This document shows, in pieces, positions 19,587 through 55,900 of a stretch of DNA of 64,000 bases. The position numbers and the translations under genes are program-made. Source of the stretch: Nitrososphaerales archaeon (lineage in GTDB: Archaea; Thermoproteota; Nitrososphaeria; Nitrososphaerales; Gagatemarchaeaceae); the NCBI GenBank assembly GCA_032906765.1, contig JAJTZB010000006.1:1-64000 (forward strand), given 5' to 3'. The notes beneath the pieces are model-generated. The model was given only the letters and a program-made list of their open reading frames with translations. It was not told the origin of the DNA and did no database searches. The number at the start of each line of letters is the position of its first letter. The first letter of the stretch is position 1.

Positions 19587-19946
19587 GTGCGCTGCAAGGC
19601 GGAGTTCACTGTTGACGGCGGCGATGCCTTGATCATAGGTCCTCACGACCCGCTTCCCACTACCAAGTGTTTTGAGTGCGGCGGCGAGGCGGTTCCTAGG
19701 GCGTTCCTGCCGGACCTTGTCCTGAGCCGCAAGAGGAGGGTTGTAGTAGAAATCTCAGGCAAGAAAAGCTCCATCCACGACCGCGCCAAGGTCGATTTCT
19801 ACAACAGGGCGGGTGTCTGCTGGGTCGAGGTCACCAACGAAACAGCAAGGTCGCCCGATGCTGTGAAGGCAATCTGCCAAGCTCTGGCGCTATCAGTCGG
19901 GTCGTCACATCCAGAGAGGGTTTGGGCGTGCGAGGGGTTTTCGTGA
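19587..19946 (+). CDS. PD-(D/E)XK-like nuclease ORF, start missing
   Basis: The 119-aa frame from GTG 19587 carries CVRCKAEF and CFECGG Cys pairs, then a strand RRVVVEISGKKSSIHDRAKVD and VCWVEVTNE, resembling a restriction-endonuclease-like core with E-x-x-GK. The frame is open upstream to 19410 and that stretch also looks coding (TEAEASFLASLNWYGIAAER), but it has no ATG, GTG or TTG. The true N-terminus may lie there through a frameshift with the preceding ORF, or the gene may be broken. It ends close to the tRNA fragment. Confidence 0.4.
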   Translation: MRCKAEFTVDGGDALIIGPHDPLPTTKCFECGGEAVPRAFLPDLVLSRKRRVVVEISGKKSSIHDRAKVDFYNRAGVCWVEVTNETARSPDAVKAICQALALSVGSSHPERVWACEGFS

Positions 19947-22482: not shown

Positions 22483-22903
22483 ATGTCCTATATCTATGAG
22501 GTCGGTCCCATCAACTACTTCAACCTCAGCGAGACCGAAAGGAACGCCGTTCTCTCAGGGTTCCATACAGGGTGCACGAGGTCTTCCCATACAAGGGCAG
22601 GTCGATCGTAGCAGACTACTTTCTTCCCAGGATGAACCTCGTGGTGGAGTGCTGGATGAGCGAGAGCAGGCGGGGGTCGCGCTGGGCTGGATGGAGAGGA
22701 ACGGCATCTACGTCGACTACATGTTCAGGAGGCTGAAAGAGGTGTACCCTGGGATCAAGTGCGGCGCCCTCGTGGAGGCCACTCAGATTGACCTTCCGTC
22801 GCTGAGGGAGTGGGTGGGTGCTGTTATGCCCCACGCGGATTGGATTGCGTTCACCATGGAGGAGTTCGCGTCGGTCATCGGAGGCGTTCTGGGTGCCGAG
22901 TGA
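22483..22903 (+). pseudogene. ECW-family nuclease-like gene, two frameshifts (locus A)
   Basis: Reading three frames in turn gives a protein similar to those at 36793 and 37224. It runs MSYIYEVGPINYFNLSETER, then VPYRVHEVFPYKGRS-IVADYF and NLVVECW, then GVALGWMERNGIYVDYMF and a tail ending EEFASVIGGVLGAE. The first shift lies near 22555. The second falls in a G-run (CGGGGGTCGC, about 22669-22678), where one missing G explains it. The Asp and Glu-Cys-Trp core of the family is kept. The downstream LAGLIDADG gene overlaps its 3' end by 11 nt. Confidence 0.6.
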
Positions 22904-23747
22904 AGGGACCAGGCCGCCTGTTCACAGCCCCGAGTTCAAGCCGTACTTCGAAGGCGTGATCAAATCGAGCAAAGGGCTGCTGGAAGCTGTGGAGAGGATG
23001 GGATACGGAGGTCCTTCGTCAGTACGGTATCATATGAAGAAGCTTGGTATCGAGGACCCTGACCATTGGTATGTTAGACCGCCTGCTTGGAGCCACAAGT
23101 TCGCGAGCTATTTCGAGGATATCGTGAAGACGAGCAAGAACGCCAGAGAGGCCGCGAACAGACTGGGCTACGCGGCACCGTGTATGATCTATCATCACGT
23201 GAAAAGGCTGGGAATCGAGACGCCGGAAGGATGGCTGTTGAAGCCGGGAGTGCGCAGGCAACGCCAGGGAATGGTGCCGGAGGTCATAATGCACGATGCA
23301 ATCGATAGGGCATGGTCGGGTGGTCTGGTTCAGGGAGAATCGGGCATCGTCGCTCACTATTCCAAGAGAACAGATGTCACGTCCCTCGAGCTTAGGACAG
23401 GAATGACGGAAGAGGCTCCGATTTTCAAACTTTGCGACTGCTTCGGAGTCGCCCGGCCGCAAAAACCGAGGCCTAGACATGGCAAGCTGAAGCCCATTTG
23501 GGAATGTGTGGCTGGAGGGTTGAGAGCTTACCGTGTCTTACAAGAGCTACTTCCTTTTCTTCTTGGTGGCAAGCTGAAAGAAGCCGAAAGAGCTTTGGAG
23601 TTCTTCGCCCCGGATGGGTACCACAAGGGTCATTTTGGAGGATATGATGTCTGGCCCCGGGACCAATTTCCGTCAAGATCAAAGGGGCGTCCAGCTCTAA
23701 CTCGCGAACAGCCTCGTCTACAGGAGGCGAAGCGGAATGAAGGTTAA
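22893..23747 (+). CDS. LAGLIDADG endonuclease with two N-terminal repeats (locus A)
   Basis: The 284-aa product starts at GTG 22893. Two ~45-residue repeats come first: PYFEGVIKSSKGL ... YHMKKLGIEDP and SYFEDIVKTSKNA ... HHVKRLGIETP. They look like helix-turn-helix units for DNA binding. A LAGLIDADG-like motif WSGGLVQGESGIVAHYS (near residue 137) and its downstream strands follow. The motif has Ser where Gly is usual. The order repeats-then-nuclease suggests a site-specific homing enzyme. It overlaps the ECW remnant, as HNH genes do at the other loci, and ends just before L10e. Confidence 0.6.
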   Translation: MPSEGTRPPVHSPEFKPYFEGVIKSSKGLLEAVERMGYGGPSSVRYHMKKLGIEDPDHWYVRPPAWSHKFASYFEDIVKTSKNAREAANRLGYAAPCMIYHHVKRLGIETPEGWLLKPGVRRQRQGMVPEVIMHDAIDRAWSGGLVQGESGIVAHYSKRTDVTSLELRTGMTEEAPIFKLCDCFGVARPQKPRPRHGKLKPIWECVAGGLRAYRVLQELLPFLLGGKLKEAERALEFFAPDGYHKGHFGGYDVWPRDQFPSRSKGRPALTREQPRLQEAKRNEG

Positions 23748-25329: not shown

Positions 25330-25893
25330 ATGGAGAAGAAACCCGTAGCTCTGCCTGGAGACAAGCTGGCCGTGTCCGAGGAATACCTCCCTGGGCCGCA
25401 CGTCTACGACGATTCTGGTCTTCTGAGAGCCCTCGCCGTCGGCACTGTGCAGAAGGACCTTCGCAAGATGGAGATTTCGATAAAGCCGTCGGTGGACGCG
25501 GGAGTCCTGAAGACCGGCGACTACGTGACCGGCCAAGTGGAGAACGCCGCGACAAGCACTGCCGGAGTCAAGATCTATTACGTCAACGGCAAGCCCACGG
25601 ACAAGGGGTTCACGGGCACGGTCATGCTCCGCTCAAGGGAGGCGGGCAGGGGAGTGCGGGGGCCACCGCCGGTCAAGCTGGGTGACATAGTCAGGTGCGG
25701 AATCCATAGCACGATGAACGGCATCATCCACCTCTCGGTCGATGACGACAGGATGGGGGTCGTTTACGCCCTGTGCGGCAACTGCGGCAGGCCGATGCAG
25801 AAGGGAGGCAACAGGGCCAAGTGCGACGAGTGCGGGAACGTGGAAGAAAGGAAGCTCGCCAACGACTTCGGGCAGACGCCTATTCGGCCGTGA
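25330..25893 (+). CDS. csl4: Exosome RNA-binding subunit Csl4
   Basis: Csl4 caps the Rrp41-Rrp42 ring of the archaeal exosome and recruits substrates. The 187-aa protein has the N-terminal domain (LPGDKLAVSEEYLPG), an S1 domain (about 60-145) and a C-terminal zinc ribbon (CGNCG ... CDECG). The start lies 1 nt after the dph2 stop. Its TGA stop is formed exactly at the right end of an inserted IS (TGACATCCTCCCAC), so the natural last residues may have been replaced. Confidence 0.92.
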   Translation: MEKKPVALPGDKLAVSEEYLPGPHVYDDSGLLRALAVGTVQKDLRKMEISIKPSVDAGVLKTGDYVTGQVENAATSTAGVKIYYVNGKPTDKGFTGTVMLRSREAGRGVRGPPPVKLGDIVRCGIHSTMNGIIHLSVDDDRMGVVYALCGNCGRPMQKGGNRAKCDECGNVEERKLANDFGQTPIRP

Positions 25894-27162
25894 CATCCTC
25901 CCACAACTGAAGGTCGTGAGTTTCCAGCGACGAGCTTCTTGCTGGGTGGCATGATTCCCGTCGCGTATAGTTCCTGCTTCACCGGCCGGGTTTGCGCGTC
26001 CCGTTGCCGGGGCGGGTAGAGGCGCCGTCTCCACAGGCTTGAGTTCGGGCATGTCCTGCCCTACCTGAGCGAGTCCTCGCTTCAGCACAATCCAGGCCGC
26101 ATTGAAGTCGCGGTCCACTGTCCTCTTGCAACCCCGGCAGTCAAAGACGCGGACCCTGAGAGGGGTCTGGTTCAGCGCCCCGCAGAAGCAGCACTCCTGC
26201 GTCGAGTAGGCCGGAGGCACCCTGACTACGAGCTTCGCGGAGCGGGCCGCCTTGTACTCTGAGAAACTTCGAAGCTGGCCCCACCCGGCATCGGCGATGG
26301 ACTTCGCCAAGGCGTGGTTGCTGACCATGTTCCTGACCTTCAGGTCCTCGAAGGCGACCAAATCGTGCTTCCGCACCAGCTCAGCGCTCAGCTTGTGGTT
26401 GAAGTCCGCTCGCTGTCGGGCGACCTTGGACGACTGGATGGCTAGCCGCCTGCGCGCCTTCTTCCTGTTCTTCGAGCCTTTCCGCGTCCTGGAGAGTTTC
26501 CGCTGGAGGCTCTTCAGCCGCCTCTCGGCCTTCCTGAGGAACTGCGGGTGAGGGATCTTCACCCCGTCCGTCGTGGCCATGAGCGACTTCAGGCCCAAGT
26601 CTATACCGAGAGGCGAGGTGAATGCCTTCACAGGTTCCGGTATCTGCACGTCGTCTTCGTACATCAGCGAGGCGTACCATTCACCGTTCGGTTCCCTGAC
26701 CATCGTGCAGGTCTTCAACCTCTCAGAGGGCGGCATCTCCCTGTGGAATACGACCTTGATATTCCCTACCTTCGAGAGGAAGAGCCTCTTCCGAGCCACG
26801 TCGGGTTTCACCGACCCGTTGTACGCCTGGGGATAGGTGAACGAGCCTGATGCGGAGAACTTCTTGAATCTCGGGTACCTGGCGCGGCCCTCGAAGAATG
26901 CCTTGAAGGCCTTGTCCAAGCGCTTGAGTATCTCCTGTCCTGCCTGCGAGTAGAGCCCTCCCAACAATGGGTCTGCGTGCCTCTCTGCAGTGAAGATCCA
27001 GCATTGCTGGCTGTATGAGGTGGAGAGCCGTTTCTCCTCCCAGCGCCGCTTTCGGTGAACCAATGCGTCGTTCCAGAGTCGCCGCGCGGCCACGACCATC
27101 CTCAGCAGCTTCCGCTCCTGCCTGCGGTTCGGATACAGACGGAACCGGAACGCTGACTTCAT
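25633..27162 (-). CDS. tnpB: TnpB RNA-guided endonuclease, reading through the IS end
   Basis: TnpB is a RuvC nuclease guided by an RNA from the element's right end. The N-terminus KSAFRFRLYPNRRQ is typical; RuvC-I is GIDLGLKS, RuvC-II VAFEDLKV, the zinc ribbon CCFCG ... CRGC, and RuvC-III DRDFNAAW, all intact. From ATG 27162 the frame does not stop inside the IS. It continues about 87 codons antisense to csl4 to 25633, giving 509 aa against the usual ~400-430. The tail is unlikely to be functional. Confidence 0.85.
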   Translation of the reverse strand: MKSAFRFRLYPNRRQERKLLRMVVAARRLWNDALVHRKRRWEEKRLSTSYSQQCWIFTAERHADPLLGGLYSQAGQEILKRLDKAFKAFFEGRARYPRFKKFSASGSFTYPQAYNGSVKPDVARKRLFLSKVGNIKVVFHREMPPSERLKTCTMVREPNGEWYASLMYEDDVQIPEPVKAFTSPLGIDLGLKSLMATTDGVKIPHPQFLRKAERRLKSLQRKLSRTRKGSKNRKKARRRLAIQSSKVARQRADFNHKLSAELVRKHDLVAFEDLKVRNMVSNHALAKSIADAGWGQLRSFSEYKAARSAKLVVRVPPAYSTQECCFCGALNQTPLRVRVFDCRGCKRTVDRDFNAAWIVLKRGLAQVGQDMPELKPVETAPLPAPATGRANPAGEAGTIRDGNHATQQEARRWKLTTFSCGRMSRPNRRLPEVVGELPFFHVPALVALGPVASLLHRPAAVAAQGVNDPHPVVIDREVDDAVHRAMDSAPDYVTQLDRRWPPHSPARLP

Positions 27163-27240
27163 GCCACCCAGAAGATAGTACACGTCATTTCACTTAAGCC
27201 CCAATGCGATTCATCCCATGGCTGAAGGAGGTGGGCTTTC
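25894..27240 (-). mobile_element. tnpB-only IS200/IS605-family element (IS1341 type)
   Basis: The right end at 25892-25925 carries the family hairpin; on the element's strand it reads CACGAC-CTTCA-GTTGTG followed by GGAGGATGTCA. The left end near 27197-27240 reads AAAGCCCACCTCCTTCAG ... CATGGGATGAATCG, the family's left-end hairpin. No TnpA is present, so movement needs TnpA in trans. It separates csl4 from rpoL. The exact left junction is uncertain by a few bases. Confidence 0.75.
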
Positions 27241-30084: not shown

Positions 30085-30312
30085 TAGTAGACAATCCGCT
30101 CACAGAGGTCCGAGAGAATAGTGGCCGATGAAATTCCGTGTCGGGGATGCATCGCTCTGGTGGAGGTGGTGCGTGCTGAGCCAGATGTTGTGGGGAGATA
30201 CGTAGGGGCGGTTATGGAGCGTACGGACGTACTGACGTGCAGCATAGAGGGGTTGGCAAGCATGGCTTGGGCGTGGTGCGAGATTCCGGAAAAATGGGTG
30301 CGACGTGTATGA
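30085..30312 (+). pseudogene. ECW-family remnant, C-terminal part (locus B)
   Basis: From about 30121 the frame reads CIALVEVVRAEPDVVGRYVG, then AVMERTDVLTCSIEGLASMA. It aligns with the last 55 residues of the intact copy at 37224 (SIALVEVAQAKVDLVREYVE ... TLCCSMDELAET). The upstream half with the Asp/Glu-Cys-Trp core is missing or unreadable, with traces of frameshifts around 30070-30120. The TGA stop overlaps the HNH gene's ATG by 4 nt, preserving the coupling seen elsewhere. Confidence 0.6.
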
Positions 30313-30980
30313 CCGTTGAACAGATTCCATGTCAATGTTGCGGACAGTCGTACCTGCGGAAGAACAAGAGGCAAAGATACTGTCCGCGGTGTCAGGCAAT
30401 TGAGAAACAGGAGTACAGGCGCCTGTACGCGGCCACCTACAGGCGAAAACACCCCATCAAAGCGAGGCAAGCCGTCAAGCGAGCATGGAAGAAGAACCAC
30501 GATTATTACCTAAAAGCCAATAGAAAATATGGGTACAGATACAGGAAAGATGTGATTCAGAAAGTGATGGGGCATTACTCGCGGGGAACTTTCGCATGCG
30601 CATGTTGTGGCGAATCGGAACGTGATTTCCTTACAATCGATCATATCGAAGGAAAGGGCATTAAGCATCGAACGTCGCTGTTCGGAAGGCCGAATTCGGG
30701 AGGTCACATGTTCTACCGATGGTTGATTAAGAATGGTTTCCCGTCTGGTTACGCCGTGCTTTGCATGAACTGTAATTTCTCGAAGGGGAAACATAAGGTC
30801 TGCATTCATCAAACCCGTGCAACGCGTCGTCTGGCTGGAAACTCTACCTTGGAGCGGAGGGTCGGGTCAATCGATAATGTCGGTTCTGCGAATGCCCTGG
30901 TCCAAGACCACCGACGCTTTTCAACAGCACATGAACCGCCACTTGGTTTGGTGAGTCGATATTACTTCTCAGGTGGCTAG
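30309..30980 (+). CDS. HNH endonuclease (locus B)
   Basis: A 223-aa nuclease. An N-terminal zinc ribbon (CQCCGQSYL ... RYCPRC) leads to a basic helical linker. The HNH domain follows: CACCGESERDFLTIDHIEGKG, then LFGRPNSGGHMFYRWLIKNG and LCMNCNFSKGKH, with both CxxC-type metal positions and the DH motif intact. The last ~50 residues beyond CIHQT have no counterpart in the other copies and may be read-through. It is coupled by ATGA to an ECW remnant. Close relatives are at 37706 and 47456. Confidence 0.8.
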   Translation: MTVEQIPCQCCGQSYLRKNKRQRYCPRCQAIEKQEYRRLYAATYRRKHPIKARQAVKRAWKKNHDYYLKANRKYGYRYRKDVIQKVMGHYSRGTFACACCGESERDFLTIDHIEGKGIKHRTSLFGRPNSGGHMFYRWLIKNGFPSGYAVLCMNCNFSKGKHKVCIHQTRATRRLAGNSTLERRVGSIDNVGSANALVQDHRRFSTAHEPPLGLVSRYYFSGG

Positions 30981-34241: not shown

Positions 34242-36716
34242 TCATTGCGCATCTGAAGTGATGAATGCGAATGGGTTAGGAGTAGCCGATGGTACTGCAC
34301 CTCCAGTCAAGAACCCCAATAGGCTCGTGGCTGACTCCCTGTACGCTTCTACTAGGGTTAGCAGGCGATTCGCGTAGACCACCAGCGTCTCGTCCGCGTC
34401 CCTTCCTGCCCTGTCAAGAACCGTCCTGCCGCTGTCGGCCGGGTAGTAGAAGGTCGAACCGCGCCTATCCTTCTCCAGCCTGAAGTCCCTCCACGTGATG
34501 CCCCCGTTTAGAATGACCGTCAGGAGCACCTCCCTGTCTGCGAACTTGAAGGGGTCGATCATGTCGAGTAGCAGGCCCATCCCACGCGAATTGTAGTGCT
34601 CCCGGTGGAGGAAGCCGTCGCACGTCCCTTCGAATCCCACTTCCGCGTTTACGCGCTCGGCCTGCCGGAGCCTTCTCTGGTGGAGGTAGTTTATCGCAGC
34701 GTCCACTGCCGAGTACCCTCTCGCTCTCCCCGCCGGGTCCCCGACGTACTCCCGCACGAACCTTGACCTCTTCCTGGGGCCGAACCACTGGAGGGTCTTC
34801 TTCACTGCTAGATCATAACAGCGCCAATACTGTTTCATGATCAAGGCCTCGTAAGTGAGGAGGCTTGTCGGAGCGGCGTCCTTGATGATCGTTAGGTACT
34901 TCTCCTGCAGGGCGACGGCCTGACCCGCTTCGTGTGCGTCCAACTTCGCGAACGTCGCAATCCTTCGTGTAGCGTTCAATGCGTTCTGTGCCATTGCGAT
35001 TGAGAAGTGTCTGGCGATGTCCGTCGACAGGGCGAGCCTGTCTACTTTCTCCTGCAGGGCCTGATTGAACCGAGGCCATACGCGAGGTGGTTCTTCCGCC
35101 TGTTCTTCTGCTCCTACGGCCATCATGTCTAGGTCTTCGGCTTCCGTCCCCCTTTCGAGCATGCGGGGGAGCCTCCCAGCCATCTCCTGCTTCCAAGCTT
35201 CCAAATCCGCGTCGGCATCGCCCCCCGTCACCTCGCGGTACAGCCTGTCGTACTCATGGTTGTAGGCTGTCATGACCTTGACCCTGTCCCTGAACCTCAC
35301 GTATCTCGTCCCGCAGTTCCTGCACGTTGTCGCGAACCCACCCTGAGCAAGCCCTTCGCCACAGATTCCGCACTTCTCGGGGACCGCCTTCCTTGTGTGA
35401 TCTCTCTTCTTGTCGATAAAGCGCACGCACGCAGACGAGTGCGGTCCTATCCTCGAGGCATATCTCATCTTGTGAATCTCGAACAGCGTGACTGGAGATC
35501 CCGCCTGCTTCCACCTTTCGTCGAAGAACACCCGCTTCTTGTTGACCAGCCACCACAGCCTGCACCTCCCCCTCACAGGCACATAGAAGGCGCACTGGCC
35601 GCAGCGCTCCTCCAGGAAAGGTGCCTTGCCCGGTTGGAAGTAGGCAGCGGCGGGCCTGCCCACCTCCCTGAACCACGTGCGCGTTTCCAGCTTCCCCTCC
35701 GCAGCCAGGCCGTCCATCACCCTGCGGAGATGTCTCGTCGGCGGGTTGAGCAGCCCCAGCCACTGCCGGTCGCTGACGGAGTCCTGGCTCCTGTAGACCT
35801 TCTCGAGCCTCGGGTCACCGGCCTTGTTCAGCTCGCCAAGCCACTTCGCTGCCTCCTCCGCCTCGTCCGGGACGGTCTCCCACCCCCTCCTTGCGACGTC
35901 CTGTAGCACCCTCTCCGCGAGCATTCCGTCGGGAACCTCCAGCTCCCGTCTGAACCTCCTCTCCCGCCCGAACCGCTGCTCGATTTGCCCAGGCTTGCCG
36001 TCGACGTAGTCTCCTGGGATAGCTGGCACCATGCCCTGCACTAGCTCCTCGTCTAGCTCGTCGAGGCGGAGACGCGGGTGGTCCTTCGAGATGCGCCAGT
36101 GGTACCTGTACCGCTCCATCGTCTTGTCCAGTAGCTCTCTGGGGATTGAGACGAACGTGTGTGACGCCAGCCCCGTCAGCTCCGGCCGCGACAACCTCGT
36201 GCCGTAGAGAAGCGCCCTCAGGACCTCCATGGCCCTGGTCTCGTCAGGCGCCGAGAGTTCGCCGCGGGCTGGCTTCGCGACAACTACTACCCGGCGCACC
36301 TTCGCCATCAGCCTCACAAGCAGGCCGTCGATGTACCCTCCACGCTCCTTGTCTGAGACGGCGGAGAGCGGTTCGATGAGGATGATTGTGTGGAATGCCC
36401 TGAACCGCTGGGTGCGCATGTACCATCGGAACCACTCCTCGTAGCTGCCGACGAGGACACGTCGGTGAGGATAGCCGAACCTCTTCTGCGCAAGCACGCC
36501 CGACCAGTGGTAGTCCTTCTCCGGCTCGAGGTGCTCAGAGCCCAATCTCGGAAGTGCCTCCAGGACAGCCTCGTCGACCATTAGCGCCACCCTGCTCAGT
36601 TTTCTAATCTGCAAACTCTCGAAGACGGTCCTCGCCAACTCCTCGGCGGGGAAGCTCCCGTCGGCCTTGAAGCGGATGAGACGCACGGAAGCGCCCCGTT
36701 TAGGCTCAAATGGCAA
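34242..36716 (-). CDS. Large stand-alone Cas1-domain protein
   Basis: An 824-aa protein whose residues ~555-745 match the Cas1 integrase helical domain. The Cas1 Glu motif is LLTYEALIMKQYW (Glu623). The His motif is DGFLHREHYNSRG (His704), and the Asp motif is MGLLLDMIDPFKF (Asp718). His-Asp spacing is 14, as in Cas1, and INYLHQRRL precedes. Residues 1-150 look Rossmann-like. A winged helix appears near 305-345. Cys372/375/385/430 and Cys449/452/465/468 form metal-binding clusters. Typical Cas1 is ~330 aa. No CRISPR array, cas2, cas4 or polB lies in the window, so it is neither a standard adaptation module nor a typical casposon. It starts at TTG 36716, divergent from the ECW pair. Confidence 0.75.
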   Translation of the reverse strand: MPFEPKRGASVRLIRFKADGSFPAEELARTVFESLQIRKLSRVALMVDEAVLEALPRLGSEHLEPEKDYHWSGVLAQKRFGYPHRRVLVGSYEEWFRWYMRTQRFRAFHTIILIEPLSAVSDKERGGYIDGLLVRLMAKVRRVVVVAKPARGELSAPDETRAMEVLRALLYGTRLSRPELTGLASHTFVSIPRELLDKTMERYRYHWRISKDHPRLRLDELDEELVQGMVPAIPGDYVDGKPGQIEQRFGRERRFRRELEVPDGMLAERVLQDVARRGWETVPDEAEEAAKWLGELNKAGDPRLEKVYRSQDSVSDRQWLGLLNPPTRHLRRVMDGLAAEGKLETRTWFREVGRPAAAYFQPGKAPFLEERCGQCAFYVPVRGRCRLWWLVNKKRVFFDERWKQAGSPVTLFEIHKMRYASRIGPHSSACVRFIDKKRDHTRKAVPEKCGICGEGLAQGGFATTCRNCGTRYVRFRDRVKVMTAYNHEYDRLYREVTGGDADADLEAWKQEMAGRLPRMLERGTEAEDLDMMAVGAEEQAEEPPRVWPRFNQALQEKVDRLALSTDIARHFSIAMAQNALNATRRIATFAKLDAHEAGQAVALQEKYLTIIKDAAPTSLLTYEALIMKQYWRCYDLAVKKTLQWFGPRKRSRFVREYVGDPAGRARGYSAVDAAINYLHQRRLRQAERVNAEVGFEGTCDGFLHREHYNSRGMGLLLDMIDPFKFADREVLLTVILNGGITWRDFRLEKDRRGSTFYYPADSGRTVLDRAGRDADETLVVYANRLLTLVEAYRESATSLLGFLTGGAVPSATPNPFAFITSDAQ

Positions 36717-36764
36717 GATTCTAGCTCTGTTTAGCTAGATGCGGAAGATAAAACCTTTGTGGTG

Positions 36765-36773
36765 CTTATTAAG
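36765..36773 (+). promoter_or_regulatory. TATA box of the ECW-ECW-HNH operon (locus C)
   Basis: CTTATTAAG is centred 24-26 nt before ATG 36793. On the other strand GTTTTATCTTCC (36747-36757) may serve the Cas1-domain gene, so both promoters share the 76-nt intergenic region. Confidence 0.5.
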
Positions 36774-36792: not shown

Positions 36793-37227
36793 ATGTCTTC
36801 AAGCTGGATGTCGAAGATGCACGCGCTGGTGCCTCTAACCGAGCAAGAGGAGTCGGTCCAGGACTTCCTGAATCTGAAAGCCATCCCGTACGCCGCACAC
36901 AGGGTCTTCCCCGTCGCGCAGCGTGTCTATGTGGTCGACTTCTACTTGCCGTTGCAGAAGCTCGCCGTTGAATGCTGGAGGAGCAACAGCCGGAGAGGGG
37001 TCGCTCTCACCTGGGTCGAGAAGAATGCCTGCTACGTCGACTGGAAATTCGAACGAATCAAGGGGACCGACCCCACCATCAGCTGCCTGGCCTTCGTGCA
37101 AGTCGTGAGCGCGGGAGCGGAGGTGGTCAGACAATACATTGGACCAGTGCTGGATCACGCCGACGCCGTCTGCTGCTCCATGGAGGAGTTCGCCGAGACG
37201 TTGAGGGCCTGGTGCGGGGTCGAGTGA
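36793..37227 (+). CDS. ECW-family nuclease-like protein 1 (locus C)
   Basis: A 144-aa protein with LTEQEESVQDFL, HRVFPVAQRVYVVDFYL, LAVECWRSNSRRGVALTWVE, KNACYVDWKFERIK and a C-terminal EEFAETLRAWCGVE. The order strand-Asp-(10)-Glu-Cys-Trp resembles the VDFYLP ... LAVE core of PD-(D/E)XK nucleases (Vsr/DUF559-like), but Trp replaces the catalytic Lys. I do not know a named family; 'ECW' is my label. ATG 36793 fits the TATA box. The stop overlaps the next ECW gene by 4 nt. Confidence 0.6.
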   Translation: MSSSWMSKMHALVPLTEQEESVQDFLNLKAIPYAAHRVFPVAQRVYVVDFYLPLQKLAVECWRSNSRRGVALTWVEKNACYVDWKFERIKGTDPTISCLAFVQVVSAGAEVVRQYIGPVLDHADAVCCSMEEFAETLRAWCGVE

Positions 37228-37703
37228 CGGAGCCGGGAGCGTTCGACGGTCTGCGCTGCGTGGATGATGGACGTGACGTGGGTGCGGCGCCCGTTGTGAA
37301 CACCGCTACGCTGACCGAGCAGGAGGAGCAGGTTGATGACATCCTCCTCCAGTATGGGGTGACCCACCTGACACACGCGGTCTTCCCTGTCAAGAACAGG
37401 ATGTACGTGGTCGACTTCTTCCTAAGCGGCAGCAGAACGATTCTGGAGTGTTGGAGAAGCATCAACAGGAGGGGCGTCGCCCTGACATGGGTCGAGAAAA
37501 ACGCAGCCTATGTCGATTTGAAGTTCAAGAGGATCAAAGCCGCTTATCCAGACATTCGATCTATCGCGCTTGTGGAAGTGGCACAGGCGAAGGTCGACTT
37601 GGTGAGGGAGTACGTGGAGCCGGTGATGGAGCACGCGGATACTCTCTGTTGTTCGATGGACGAGCTAGCCGAAACCATCAGGCGTTTGTGTGGAGTCGAA
37701 TAA
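37224..37703 (+). CDS. ECW-family nuclease-like protein 2 (locus C)
   Basis: A 159-aa paralogue of the preceding gene, co-translated with it (GTGA overlap). It has LTEQEEQVDDIL (near 30), HAVFPVKNRMYVVDFFL with Asp64, TILECWRS with Glu75, RRGVALTWVEKNAAYVDLKF, a strand SIALVEVAQAKVD, and the tail CCSMDELAETIRRLCGVE. The ~29 N-terminal residues are extra. The two copies differ by roughly half their residues, so they are old duplicates and may form a heterodimer. The HNH gene starts 2 nt after its stop. Confidence 0.6.
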   Translation: MTEPGAFDGLRCVDDGRDVGAAPVVNTATLTEQEEQVDDILLQYGVTHLTHAVFPVKNRMYVVDFFLSGSRTILECWRSINRRGVALTWVEKNAAYVDLKFKRIKAAYPDIRSIALVEVAQAKVDLVREYVEPVMEHADTLCCSMDELAETIRRLCGVE

Positions 37704-37705
37704 GA

Positions 37706-38545
37706 ATGCCAGGACCGCTGAAGTGTCTGAGAAGCTGTGTTACCTGTGGTCAACAGTTCCGACCTAACAACTGGAAACAACGGTACTGCGTGTCATGCGG
37801 CCGAATCCACGAGACAGAGCACGTAAGAGAATATGAAAGAACCTACCGCGAAGCACATGAAGAAACCATCAGGACGCAGGCAAGAGCGCGGTGGGCAGAA
37901 CGAAAGGCAGGGCGACCACTGAAAATGAAAGGGCACCGCCGCAGTGTACCGAAGTTGCTCAAGACTTGCTTGCGCTGCGGCGTGGACTATTTGCCAGGCA
38001 ACGGCAATCAGAAGTTCTGCGGACCCTGTCGACCACTAGCTTTCAAGGAGTTGCGCCGTGCAGACCATCAGGAATGGCTCAAGAGGAACCGGGAGAAGGC
38101 CAGGCAGTCGAATTTGAAATACTGCGCGAGGGAATCCGTTCGTGCCAAGATGAAGGCGTACCGCGTCGAGTACGAAGACAAGATTAGGCGGGCGGTGCTG
38201 GGTCACTACTCCAACGGAACGTTGGCTTGCGTGTGTTGTGGAGAGTCGGAGATTGATTTCCTGACCTTGGATCATGTGAACAACGACGGCGGAAAGGTGA
38301 GGAGGCAGCTTTTCGGGAGACCCAATACGGGCGGAGTTCCGTATTATCGCTGGGTTCTCAAGAATGGCTTCCCGAGTAACCTTCAGACACTGTGCTACAA
38401 CTGCAATTGCAGCAAAGGAAAACACGGGGAGTGCGTCCATAAGCACAAGGGGCCTCTGGCGGATGAGGGAGCGATGACTCTTGATAGGTGGGCGGAACTC
38501 AGCCAGGAACCAGGACGCGCCCGGGAGCCGGCCCCGTCGATTTGA
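37706..38545 (+). CDS. HNH endonuclease (locus C)
   Basis: A 279-aa nuclease with two N-terminal zinc ribbons (CVTCGQQF ... YCVSCGR and CLRCGVDY ... FCGPC) and a long basic helical linker. The HNH domain follows: CVCCGESEIDFLTLDHVNNDG, then LFGRPNTGGVPYYRWVLKNG and LCYNCNCSKGKHGECVHK. Metal ligands and the DH pair are intact. It ends the ECW-ECW-HNH operon. Relatives are at 30309 and 47456 (minus strand). It is not within an intron or intein; PCNA follows. Confidence 0.82.
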   Translation: MPGPLKCLRSCVTCGQQFRPNNWKQRYCVSCGRIHETEHVREYERTYREAHEETIRTQARARWAERKAGRPLKMKGHRRSVPKLLKTCLRCGVDYLPGNGNQKFCGPCRPLAFKELRRADHQEWLKRNREKARQSNLKYCARESVRAKMKAYRVEYEDKIRRAVLGHYSNGTLACVCCGESEIDFLTLDHVNNDGGKVRRQLFGRPNTGGVPYYRWVLKNGFPSNLQTLCYNCNCSKGKHGECVHKHKGPLADEGAMTLDRWAELSQEPGRAREPAPSI

Positions 38546-47455: not shown

Positions 47456-48031
47456 CTATCGGGCGACGACTGTCGATTCCTCAGGCGTGACCAATGCAAT
47501 TGGAACTTTCTTGTGGACACACTCTCCATGTTTTCCCTTTGACACATTGCAATTGGAACAGAGGACTTGGAAGCCAGGAGGTAATCCGTTATGCGAAAGC
47601 CATTGGTAGAAGTTTCCTCCAGCCCTTCTAGGGTCTCCGAAAATCTCCCGCCTGTGTTTCGAACCTTTGCCATTGATATGATCGATTGTAAGGAAATCGA
47701 CCTCTCCTTCGCCGCAACAAGCACACTTGAAAGTGTCGTTTGAATAGTGACTGAGTATCCTCGATCTGATTCTTTCTCGCCTCTTTGACTGATTTTTCCT
47801 ACTTTGCTCGCGGTAGTAATCCATTCGCTTAGCCCGTGTTCTCTTGACAGACTCTGCCACTTTCTTGGGGTTTCTGCGATAGTACTCCATGTTCTGCTTT
47901 CTCGCGTATTCCCGATATGCGATTGGCTTGCATTTGAGGCAGTATTTCTGGCGCGGACCCCTACGTTCAAACGACGACCCGCACCTTTCACAAACTGCCC
48001 ACTGATCTTCTTTAGACACGCCCCGCGTCAT
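47456..48031 (-). CDS. HNH endonuclease, lone copy (locus D)
   Basis: A 191-aa relative of the HNH genes at 30309 and 37706. It has an N-terminal zinc ribbon (CERCGSSF ... YCLKC), a basic helix, CACCGEGEVDFLTIDHINGKG, then GGNFYQWLSHNGLPPGFQ and LCSNCNVSKGKHGECVHK. Catalytic and metal residues are intact. No ECW gene is recognisable beside it. GC is clearly below the ribosomal-protein genes that follow. It is not in an intron or intein. Confidence 0.82.
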   Translation of the reverse strand: MTRGVSKEDQWAVCERCGSSFERRGPRQKYCLKCKPIAYREYARKQNMEYYRRNPKKVAESVKRTRAKRMDYYREQSRKNQSKRRERIRSRILSHYSNDTFKCACCGEGEVDFLTIDHINGKGSKHRREIFGDPRRAGGNFYQWLSHNGLPPGFQVLCSNCNVSKGKHGECVHKKVPIALVTPEESTVVAR

Positions 48032-48819: not shown

Positions 48820-49508
48820 TCAGGCTCGAAGTTGTCTTGAGACTATCCGTGAAACATAGCTCTGTGAAACTCCATAGACTTCGGCTAGATTGCGCTGTGA
48901 TAAGCCAGATTCCTTGTAATCCTTCGTAATTCTCTCAGCAACGTCTGGCGTAATTAGTGCGTGTTTTTTCCTAGTCAACGCTGCCCGCTCCCTCCCAAGT
49001 AGCGCTCCTTCAGACTTGAAGAAGCGAAGGTCTTCAGGGAGTAGTCTTTTCCCCACCCTCTCTCCTATCTTCACTTGCTCGTTTATCCTCTTAGCGAACT
49101 CTGCACCGTCCATCTTGTCGTCAGATAATCGACAGCAGCCCGCGCTTCCTCGTGCTTCTTGTCCAGGTAAGGCAACATCGAGTTCAAGATATTTACTGTG
49201 TCTTCTCTCCTTCTCACCCTCAGACGCCAAAACTTCTTTCCCTTCGTTCTTTGCAGGGAGAGGGTGGAGAAGAAACCTCTTTCTTGCAAGAATGAGGCCA
49301 TGTGCTCGAGCAGCGGCTCGTAGTTATCGGCGAAGGCTAGTCCTATTGCGAAACCAAATCGCGTGACTGAGATGCTTATCGAACCATCCCCGTCAAAGTA
49401 TCCAGCGACTTGCTCCCAGGTAGAATAGGCATTATGGCGCCCATTTGGGGCAGACTTACAGGAGTAGGAATCCTTGTGTTCGTTCTCTTTCCTGATTAGG
49501 ACGTGCAC
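48820..49508 (-). pseudogene. Frameshifted LAGLIDADG-HTH homing endonuclease
   Basis: The minus strand encodes a clear motif VAGYFDGDGSISISV followed by NILNSMLPYLDKKHEEARAA, then shifts frame near 49115. It continues DDKMDGAEFAKRINEQ and a C-terminal HTH, YKESGLSQRNLAEVYGVSQS. Joined, the halves form a single-motif LAGLIDADG endonuclease with an HTH tail. One base change near the junction restores it. It sits on the opposite strand between S27e and aIF2-alpha. Confidence 0.65.
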
Positions 49509-54639: not shown

Positions 54640-55900
54640 AGATTCTATTGTGAACTACCACTGGTTAAAACCATTGGCTTCTTGCTTCACAGGAGAGAAC
54701 TTGCTTATCCTCGTTCGTTGGACAAGTAGAGGCCGCTCCTCCGCAGGGGCCCGTTCCAGGCCCCGCTTGAGTATGTTCCGTGCCGCGTTCTCGTCCCTGT
54801 CAACGACGAGACCGCAGTTCGGGCACGCATGAACCCGCACGGACAGGTCCTTGGGAACCGTCTCCGCGCACCCGGAGCATATCTGCGATGTCCCACTTGG
54901 GTCGACGAGTATTACTCGTCCACCACGCCTTTCTGCCTTGTAGGCAGTTAGTTGGCGCGGTTGGCCCCAAGAGGCATCCATTATTGCCGATGCCAGATTG
55001 TGGTTCCTCACCATGTTCGGAATCTTCAAGTCTTCGAAGACGATGGTTGAATAGTTGTAGGCCAGGTGACGAGAGACATTGTGGGCGTAGTCCCTTCGCT
55101 GGTTCCTGATGTGGCGGTGCGCCTTTGCTAGAAGCATCCTGGCCTTTTCCCTGCTGTGAGAACCTTTGTGCTTCCTTGAGAGGCTTCGCTGAAGCTTCTT
55201 GACACTGCTCTCTGCTGTCTTCAGGCAGCGAGGGTTATCGAATCGCGTGCCGTCGCTCAATGTTGCAACTCTGAGCACTCCAAGGTCCACGCCTATTGCA
55301 GGCTTGGGGCTTGGAGGTTGTCCGAGTTCGGGTTGCTCAACCATCACGCAGACGTACCACCGGTCAATGTCCCTGATGATAGCGCACCTCCTTGGAGTGC
55401 CTATGATCTCCCTGTGAAGTTTGATCTTCACAGAACCTATCCTTGAGAGTTTGAGGCGGTCGCCGATGATCTTGAACCCTCCTGGCTGCGTATATGTGAA
55501 TGAGTTGTACCTCCCGCTGCGCTTGAACCTTGGATGCCTCGCAAGGCCAGCAAAGAACGCCTGGAAGGCCTTGTCGAGCCTGATATTCACGTCCTGGAGG
55601 ACCTGGGAGTGGACAGCCCTCAGATACTTGCTGGCGCCCTTCCTTTCAACGAGGGAATGTTGCAGGTCGTAGAATCCTGTGCCGTCTTCATTCCTTTCGG
55701 CGAGGAGGTCGTTGTAGAGCCGCCTGCAGGTCTCCAAGGTCTGCTCCATCAAATGGGCTTGTGTCTTGTTTGGATACAGCCTGAACCTGTATGTGACGAT
55801 CATCCTTCAAGGGACGAAAGACGCTTTCATGATATAAGAACCAAGCTCGCTCTCATCCACCGGATTCATCTGGTGGAGTTCCCGCTCGAATTGTTTTAAG
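54640..55900 (-). mobile_element. tnpB-only IS200/IS605-family element, second copy
   Basis: The right end near 54645-54680 reads, on the element's strand, AGCCAATGGTTTTAACCAGT followed by GGTAGTTCACA, a typical right-end hairpin. The left end near 55850-55895 reads CTCCACC-AGATGAATC-CGGTGG. No TnpA is present. It lies between gcvT and cofE. End positions are approximate. Confidence 0.7.
54655..55803 (-). CDS. tnpB: TnpB RNA-guided endonuclease
   Basis: A 382-aa TnpB with the N-terminus TYRFRLYPNKTQAHL, RuvC-I GVDLGVLRVA, RuvC-II IVFEDLKIP, a zinc ribbon (CSGC ... CPNC) and RuvC-III VDRDENAARN, all intact. It should be an active nuclease if its guide RNA is made from the right end. It differs clearly from the tnpB at 25633 and from the one at 60061, so the three come from separate lineages. 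Confidence 0.92.
   Translation of the reverse strand: MIVTYRFRLYPNKTQAHLMEQTLETCRRLYNDLLAERNEDGTGFYDLQHSLVERKGASKYLRAVHSQVLQDVNIRLDKAFQAFFAGLARHPRFKRSGRYNSFTYTQPGGFKIIGDRLKLSRIGSVKIKLHREIIGTPRRCAIIRDIDRWYVCVMVEQPELGQPPSPKPAIGVDLGVLRVATLSDGTRFDNPRCLKTAESSVKKLQRSLSRKHKGSHSREKARMLLAKAHRHIRNQRRDYAHNVSRHLAYNYSTIVFEDLKIPNMVRNHNLASAIMDASWGQPRQLTAYKAERRGGRVILVDPSGTSQICSGCAETVPKDLSVRVHACPNCGLVVDRDENAARNILKRGLERAPAEERPLLVQRTRISKFSPVKQEANGFNQW

Follow-up and report, generated by a model that had tools for sequence, protein, structure and literature searches.

Background

The origin of CRISPR adaptation has been traced to Cas1 integrases outside CRISPR. The known Cas1-solo groups are the casposases and a group without the full active site (PMC4046053). 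Casposons described from thaumarchaea carry Cas1, HNH and HTH genes together with PolB, and their targets are EF-2, tRNA or other genes (PMC6563490). Here we examine a 64,000-nucleotide stretch of a Nitrososphaerales genome (contig JAJTZB010000006.1, positions 1 to 64,000; the window), in which a Cas1 domain with an active-looking site is fused to a long, different N-terminal region, and which thereby adds a third point of comparison. We estimate the probability at roughly 0.5 that this fusion and the neighboring nuclease-like gene, nucA, are a long-resident integrase-nuclease pair and represent a third CRISPR-independent Cas1 lineage, with a function that may lie in defence, recombination or selfish propagation.

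The Cas1 domain and its active site

The 824-aa reading frame that a first-pass annotation had placed at 34242 to 36716 is real: it is encoded by the minus strand and begins at a TTG codon; the plus strand of the same interval is full of stops. The annotation had also named three Cas1 catalytic signatures (Glu623, His704 and Asp718) in the C-terminal third, and these held up. The C-terminus matches Pfam PF01867 (Cas1) at E=2.1e-7, over the curated cut-off, and the PADLOC Cas1 model at E=7.7e-10, while a match to TIGR00287 falls under that model's cut-off. When we aligned the protein with 52 Cas1 proteins, E623, H704 and D718 fell in the catalytic E/H/D columns of all 52, and D721 took the fourth acidic position of the active site. 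The Cas1 fold, which the annotation had proposed checking by structure prediction, was recovered by AlphaFold with a pLDDT of about 80-90 over the Cas1 part, and Foldseek placed only Cas1 and casposase structures among the top matches of this model (4n06 at E=2e-7; the casposase 6opm at E=3e-6). Taken from Pfam, AlphaFold, Foldseek and the alignment, the alpha-helical catalytic domain spans residues about 560-805 (34302 to 35039, minus strand) and holds E623, H704, D718 and D721. By sequence and predicted structure, the C-terminus of the fusion is a true Cas1 domain with a complete active site.

We detected no N-terminal beta-domain, the dimerisation domain of Cas1, in the fusion: the Pfam match begins at profile position 96 of 283, and the fold model has helices, not strands, ahead of the catalytic domain where that beta-domain would lie. 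On this evidence the beta-domain seems to have been replaced. In addition, an arginine (R728) in an 'ADRE' motif marks the clade that the fusions form with two solo Cas1s, whereas all other aligned Cas1s have D or E there.

The N-terminal region

The first 540 or so residues had been described as unlike any Cas1, with a Rossmann-like region, an HTH or winged helix, and eight cysteines in two clusters. The region is indeed unlike known Cas1, and the cysteines were confirmed. They lie in a Cys-rich region at residues 366-520 (35157 to 35621, minus strand) with the pattern CxxC-x9-C-x44-C followed by CxxC-x12-CxxC, and all eight (C372, C375, C385 and C430; C449, C452, C465 and C468) are invariant in four homologues; this region probably binds metal. 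The winged helix was not confirmed: no part of the fusion matches any Pfam HTH or winged-helix family. Residues 1-190 (36147 to 36716, minus strand) form an alpha/beta region in the fold model that is weakly RecA/DEAD-box-like and has no Walker A motif, and the DEAD-box matches that Foldseek gave have E-values of 0.5 or more, so that the case for a Rossmann/RecA-like fold is weak. Residues 191-365 (35622 to 36146, minus strand) are mostly helical in the model and have no family match in Pfam. AlphaFold confidence over residues 1-540 is low (pLDDT mostly 30-65, with two stretches of 65-80), and searching PDB sequences with a profile of the fusion gave nothing useful. Cas6-RT-Cas1 and Cas4-Cas1 proteins are likewise large Cas1 fusions, but Pfam recognises no RT, Cas6 or Cas4 in the N-terminal region here.

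We also considered whether the N-terminus could derive from a degenerate Hel308/Ski2 helicase, an idea that came from TYE..W and D..RG motifs picked out by eye and from the weak DEAD-box matches. In profile comparisons with 19 Hel308 proteins from Nitrososphaerales the N-terminus scored no better than shuffled sequence, and we rejected the idea. Hel308 itself appears to carry an intein-like insert, which opens with a CLPAGEE motif, in the source genome (L139 and other loci) and in several relatives.

The partner gene nucA and the conserved intergenic element

Calling the protein a stand-alone Cas1, as had been done, is misleading, because it has a conserved partner gene and shares a divergent promoter region with it. 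The partner, nucA, is transcribed away from the fusion in a back-to-back arrangement. Its first copy (36793 to 37227, plus strand) encodes 144 aa and is followed by a tandem paralogue (37299 to 37703, plus strand; start uncertain) with 57% identity over 130 aa. Six of the seven genomes with a fusion have nucA; among the 39 without one, a single genome does, and there it is a remnant. The fold model of nucA, at a pLDDT of 90.9, shows the alpha/beta fold of a nuclease. Its structural matches include Can2, Mus81, AbaSI and Cas4-like proteins, the best at E=2.7e-3 with probability 1.00 and none under 1e-3. The model thus resembles the restriction-endonuclease-like, or PD-(D/E)XK, fold, and we predict that nucA is a nuclease. 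D49 and E60 are invariant, as is K90, but 'ECW' stands where the lysine of D...ExK is expected, and this absence of the usual catalytic lysine counts against the integrase-nuclease reading. The PADLOC model PDC-S69 aligns to nucA through its C-terminal part (E=3e-9). PDC-S69 is an unvalidated candidate defence protein with a 289-aa single-gene model; nucA, by comparison, is short and paired with Cas1.

Between the two genes lies a 27-bp element, GATAAAnCCnTTGTnGTGnTTAnTAAG, at 36747 to 36773 (strand not assigned). This core of their shared intergenic region occurs once in each of four genomes, always between the fusion and nucA, and nowhere else in the 46 genomes of the archaeal family, even though the fusion proteins of those four genomes are just about 35-64% identical. 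We interpret the element as a pair of TATA-like boxes set back to back, and so as putative promoters of both genes.

Distribution and phylogeny

The fusion was found in 7 of the 46 genomes, remnants included, at one copy per genome. We found it in this one family of Nitrososphaerales only; no further fusion turned up when the search was widened to 400 class and 329 phylum genomes, and none of the viral contigs, phages or plasmids searched held a relative. In a Cas1 tree in which casposases were recognised by their match to 6opm, the fusions cluster with two solo Cas1s (support 100/99), outside the sampled CRISPR Cas1s and casposases. One of the two is a 335-aa protein encoded elsewhere in the source genome, which joins the fusions at a node with support 99/98; the other is a partial sequence from another class. 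A long branch separates this clade, and its exact depth is unsure, which also counts against reading it as a third lineage.

The source-genome solo Cas1 lies on L023 (11760-12767, minus strand), with a complete E/H/D/D site and a GC3 z-score of -2.3; a NOB1-like gene lies downstream of it and an Sm-like ORF before it.

Comparison with CRISPR Cas1 and casposons

With CRISPR-associated Cas1, which works with Cas2 and Cas4, the fusion shares the catalytic domain, and its PD-(D/E)XK-type partner recalls Cas4. It differs in the undetected beta-domain, in R728 and in genomic setting. The source genome has just two Cas1 matches, both in the fusion/solo clade, and none of the seven fusion genomes, the source genome included, yielded a Cas2, although the same search finds one in the CRISPR-bearing G005. 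The cas2 that the annotation did not see was thus not found genome-wide either, and these observations support the view that the fusion stands outside any CRISPR adaptation module. We also found no repeat or tandem array within the window. The annotation had suggested a new integrase lineage or an undescribed mobile or memory system; the first part is supported, in that this is a distinct Cas1 lineage that appears to be neither a CRISPR module nor a casposase.

The resemblance to casposases (Cas1-solo group 2) extends to the catalytic fold, the E/H/D/acidic site, the lack of a CRISPR link and the homing and HNH genes nearby. A further reading takes the locus for what is left of a casposon or similar integrated element, now degenerate, whose polymerase and inverted repeats have been lost; the HNH and HTH genes that accompany Cas1 in thaumarchaeal casposons speak for it. 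We consider this very improbable. The fusion falls outside the sampled casposases, so that phylogeny supports its not being one, subject to the long branch; its 540-aa N-terminal region is an architecture unlike theirs, its inheritance looks host-like and vertical, and its coding sequence is still under constraint. We saw no C-terminal HTH in the fusion and no terminal inverted repeats around the fusion unit at three loci, and PolB was found neither among the neighbors scanned with Pfam nor, by reading, among the ORFs around the fusion loci. Cas1-solo group 1 of Methanomicrobiales is similar in that its Cas1 gene is unlinked to CRISPR and inherited without obvious transfer, but its active site is incomplete (PMC4046053) and that of the fusion is complete.

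Inheritance, chromosomal positions and homing genes

We compared the divergence and composition of the fusion with those of its neighbors. Between the source genome and G001 the fusion has a dN/dS of 0.22 (0.22 in the N-terminal part, 0.24 in Cas1 and, lowest, 0.16 in the Cys region). Its identity to the G001 and G015 proteins is 64% and 40%, respectively, against 63% and 40% for the neighboring TrmG10 gene. The fusion and most nucA copies have GC3 at or above the host level, the exceptions being the G030 fusion (z -3.9) and a nucA remnant near priS, whereas every homing gene is low in GC3 (z -1.5 to -6.5). Purifying selection on the fusion, a divergence like that of its neighbor and a host-like GC3, which the homing genes do not have, argue for a resident pair that has been passed on vertically and beside whose nucA the HNH and LAGLIDADG genes came in, probably as later arrivals.

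The same comparison bears on a domesticated role, in which Cas1, helped by nucA, would serve the repair of host DNA as a structure-specific nuclease. Cas1 proteins cut branched DNA, and the vertical inheritance and purifying selection of the fusion, together with the presence of PCNA, priS and SRP54 in its neighborhood, would suit such a role. However, 39 of the 46 genomes have no fusion; since most relatives have lost it, it is not essential. The partner nuclease, moreover, resembles a defence candidate (PDC-S69), and we regard the repair role as unlikely.

The position of the unit is not constant: it occupies three sites in the stretch from SRP54 to PCNA. It lies upstream of PCNA in the window and of rpl10e in G001, G013, G015 and G017; for G030 and G011 the corresponding gene is SRP54. 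In the window no more than about 30 kb separates these three landmarks. Several copies have decayed: the G017 fusion is frameshifted, G011 retains a remnant, and that of G030 is without its N-terminus. An HNH homing-endonuclease-like gene (37706 to 38545, plus strand; GC3 z -1.5) begins 2 bp past nucA copy 2 and lies immediately upstream of PCNA (38649). Two satellite cassettes of nucA and a homing gene occur in the window as well. At rpl10e (22521 to 23747), a frameshifted nucA remnant (22521 to 22900, plus strand) precedes a gene with HTH repeats that is LAGLIDADG-type by motif (22902 to 23747, plus strand; GC3 z -2.2), lies just upstream of rpl10e and has relatives that match phrog_5046. 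Near priS (30112 to 30980), a C-terminal nucA remnant (30112 to 30285, plus strand) precedes an HNH homing-endonuclease-like gene (30306 to 30980, plus strand).

The three positions and the extra cassettes suggest some mobility, and with the decayed copies they count against long residence. In a serious rival reading, the locus is a selfish homing-like element with one Cas1-bearing master copy per genome and dependent cassettes of nucA and homing endonuclease near essential genes (rpl10e, PCNA, priS). Nuclease cuts at sites that have no cassette would be followed by the insertion of copies, through Cas1 or host repair. Three kinds of homing genes directly follow nucA at several sites, the Cas1-linked copy has PCNA as its site in the window and rpl10e in the four genomes named above, and the fusion is patchy in presence and frequently decayed. 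A nucA tree did not resolve the copies by chromosomal site; in it the G001 rpl10e nucA groups, weakly, with the PCNA-type copies, which speaks for the rival. Against such an element stand the lack of terminal inverted repeats, the single fusion copy in each genome, the lack of relatives among viral contigs, phages and plasmids, and a fusion that diverges like chromosomal genes with host-like GC3 where the homing genes are foreign. On balance we find the selfish element less likely than the resident pair. The three positions and the decayed copies speak for the mobility raised in the original suggestion.

G017 carries, about 3 kb from its full rpl10e, a partial copy of the C-terminal part of that gene (L021 3319-3585 and 6546-6989, minus strand). 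The partial copy adjoins the Cas1/nucA/LAGLIDADG unit and resembles a scar left by integration or duplication.

Possible function of the pair

If the fusion and nucA are a long-resident integrase-nuclease pair, they may be divergently co-expressed from the conserved promoter region. nucA would make, cleave or trim DNA ends, and the Cas1 fusion would perform strand transfer or branch processing, joining or cutting them. The N-terminal region might pick the sites, as a DNA-binding or scaffold region with putative metal-binding Cys clusters. By analogy, the action would parallel casposon integration, or the step of CRISPR adaptation in which a nuclease works together with Cas1 (Cas4-Cas1); unlike in those systems, no array was seen with the fusion, and no element that bears a polymerase. 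Such a pair would serve defence or recombination as an accessory, frequently lost DNA-processing system. A bolder version, which we hold only tentatively and think doubtful, is a third biological use of Cas1, apart from CRISPR adaptation and casposon transposition: a Cas1-nuclease machine that would capture or rearrange chromosomal DNA in defence or programmed recombination and would be targeted by a fused region of its own. With its different N-terminal region, dedicated nuclease and conserved promoter, the fusion offers a testable system of Cas1 without Cas2, array or transposon.

Other genes in the window

Five homing-endonuclease-like genes of LAGLIDADG and HNH type, all with foreign GC3, lie in the window (22902-23747, 30306-30980, 37706-38545, 47456-48031 and 49083-49508), an unusual cluster around rpl10e, priS, PCNA and rpl44e. 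A small ORF at 19587-19946 (plus strand) has a restriction-nuclease-like D...E pattern and a Cys pair, with no Pfam match. The window also holds an IS605 OrfB/TnpB-type gene at 25633-27183 (minus strand), with similar-looking ORFs at 54655 and 60061.
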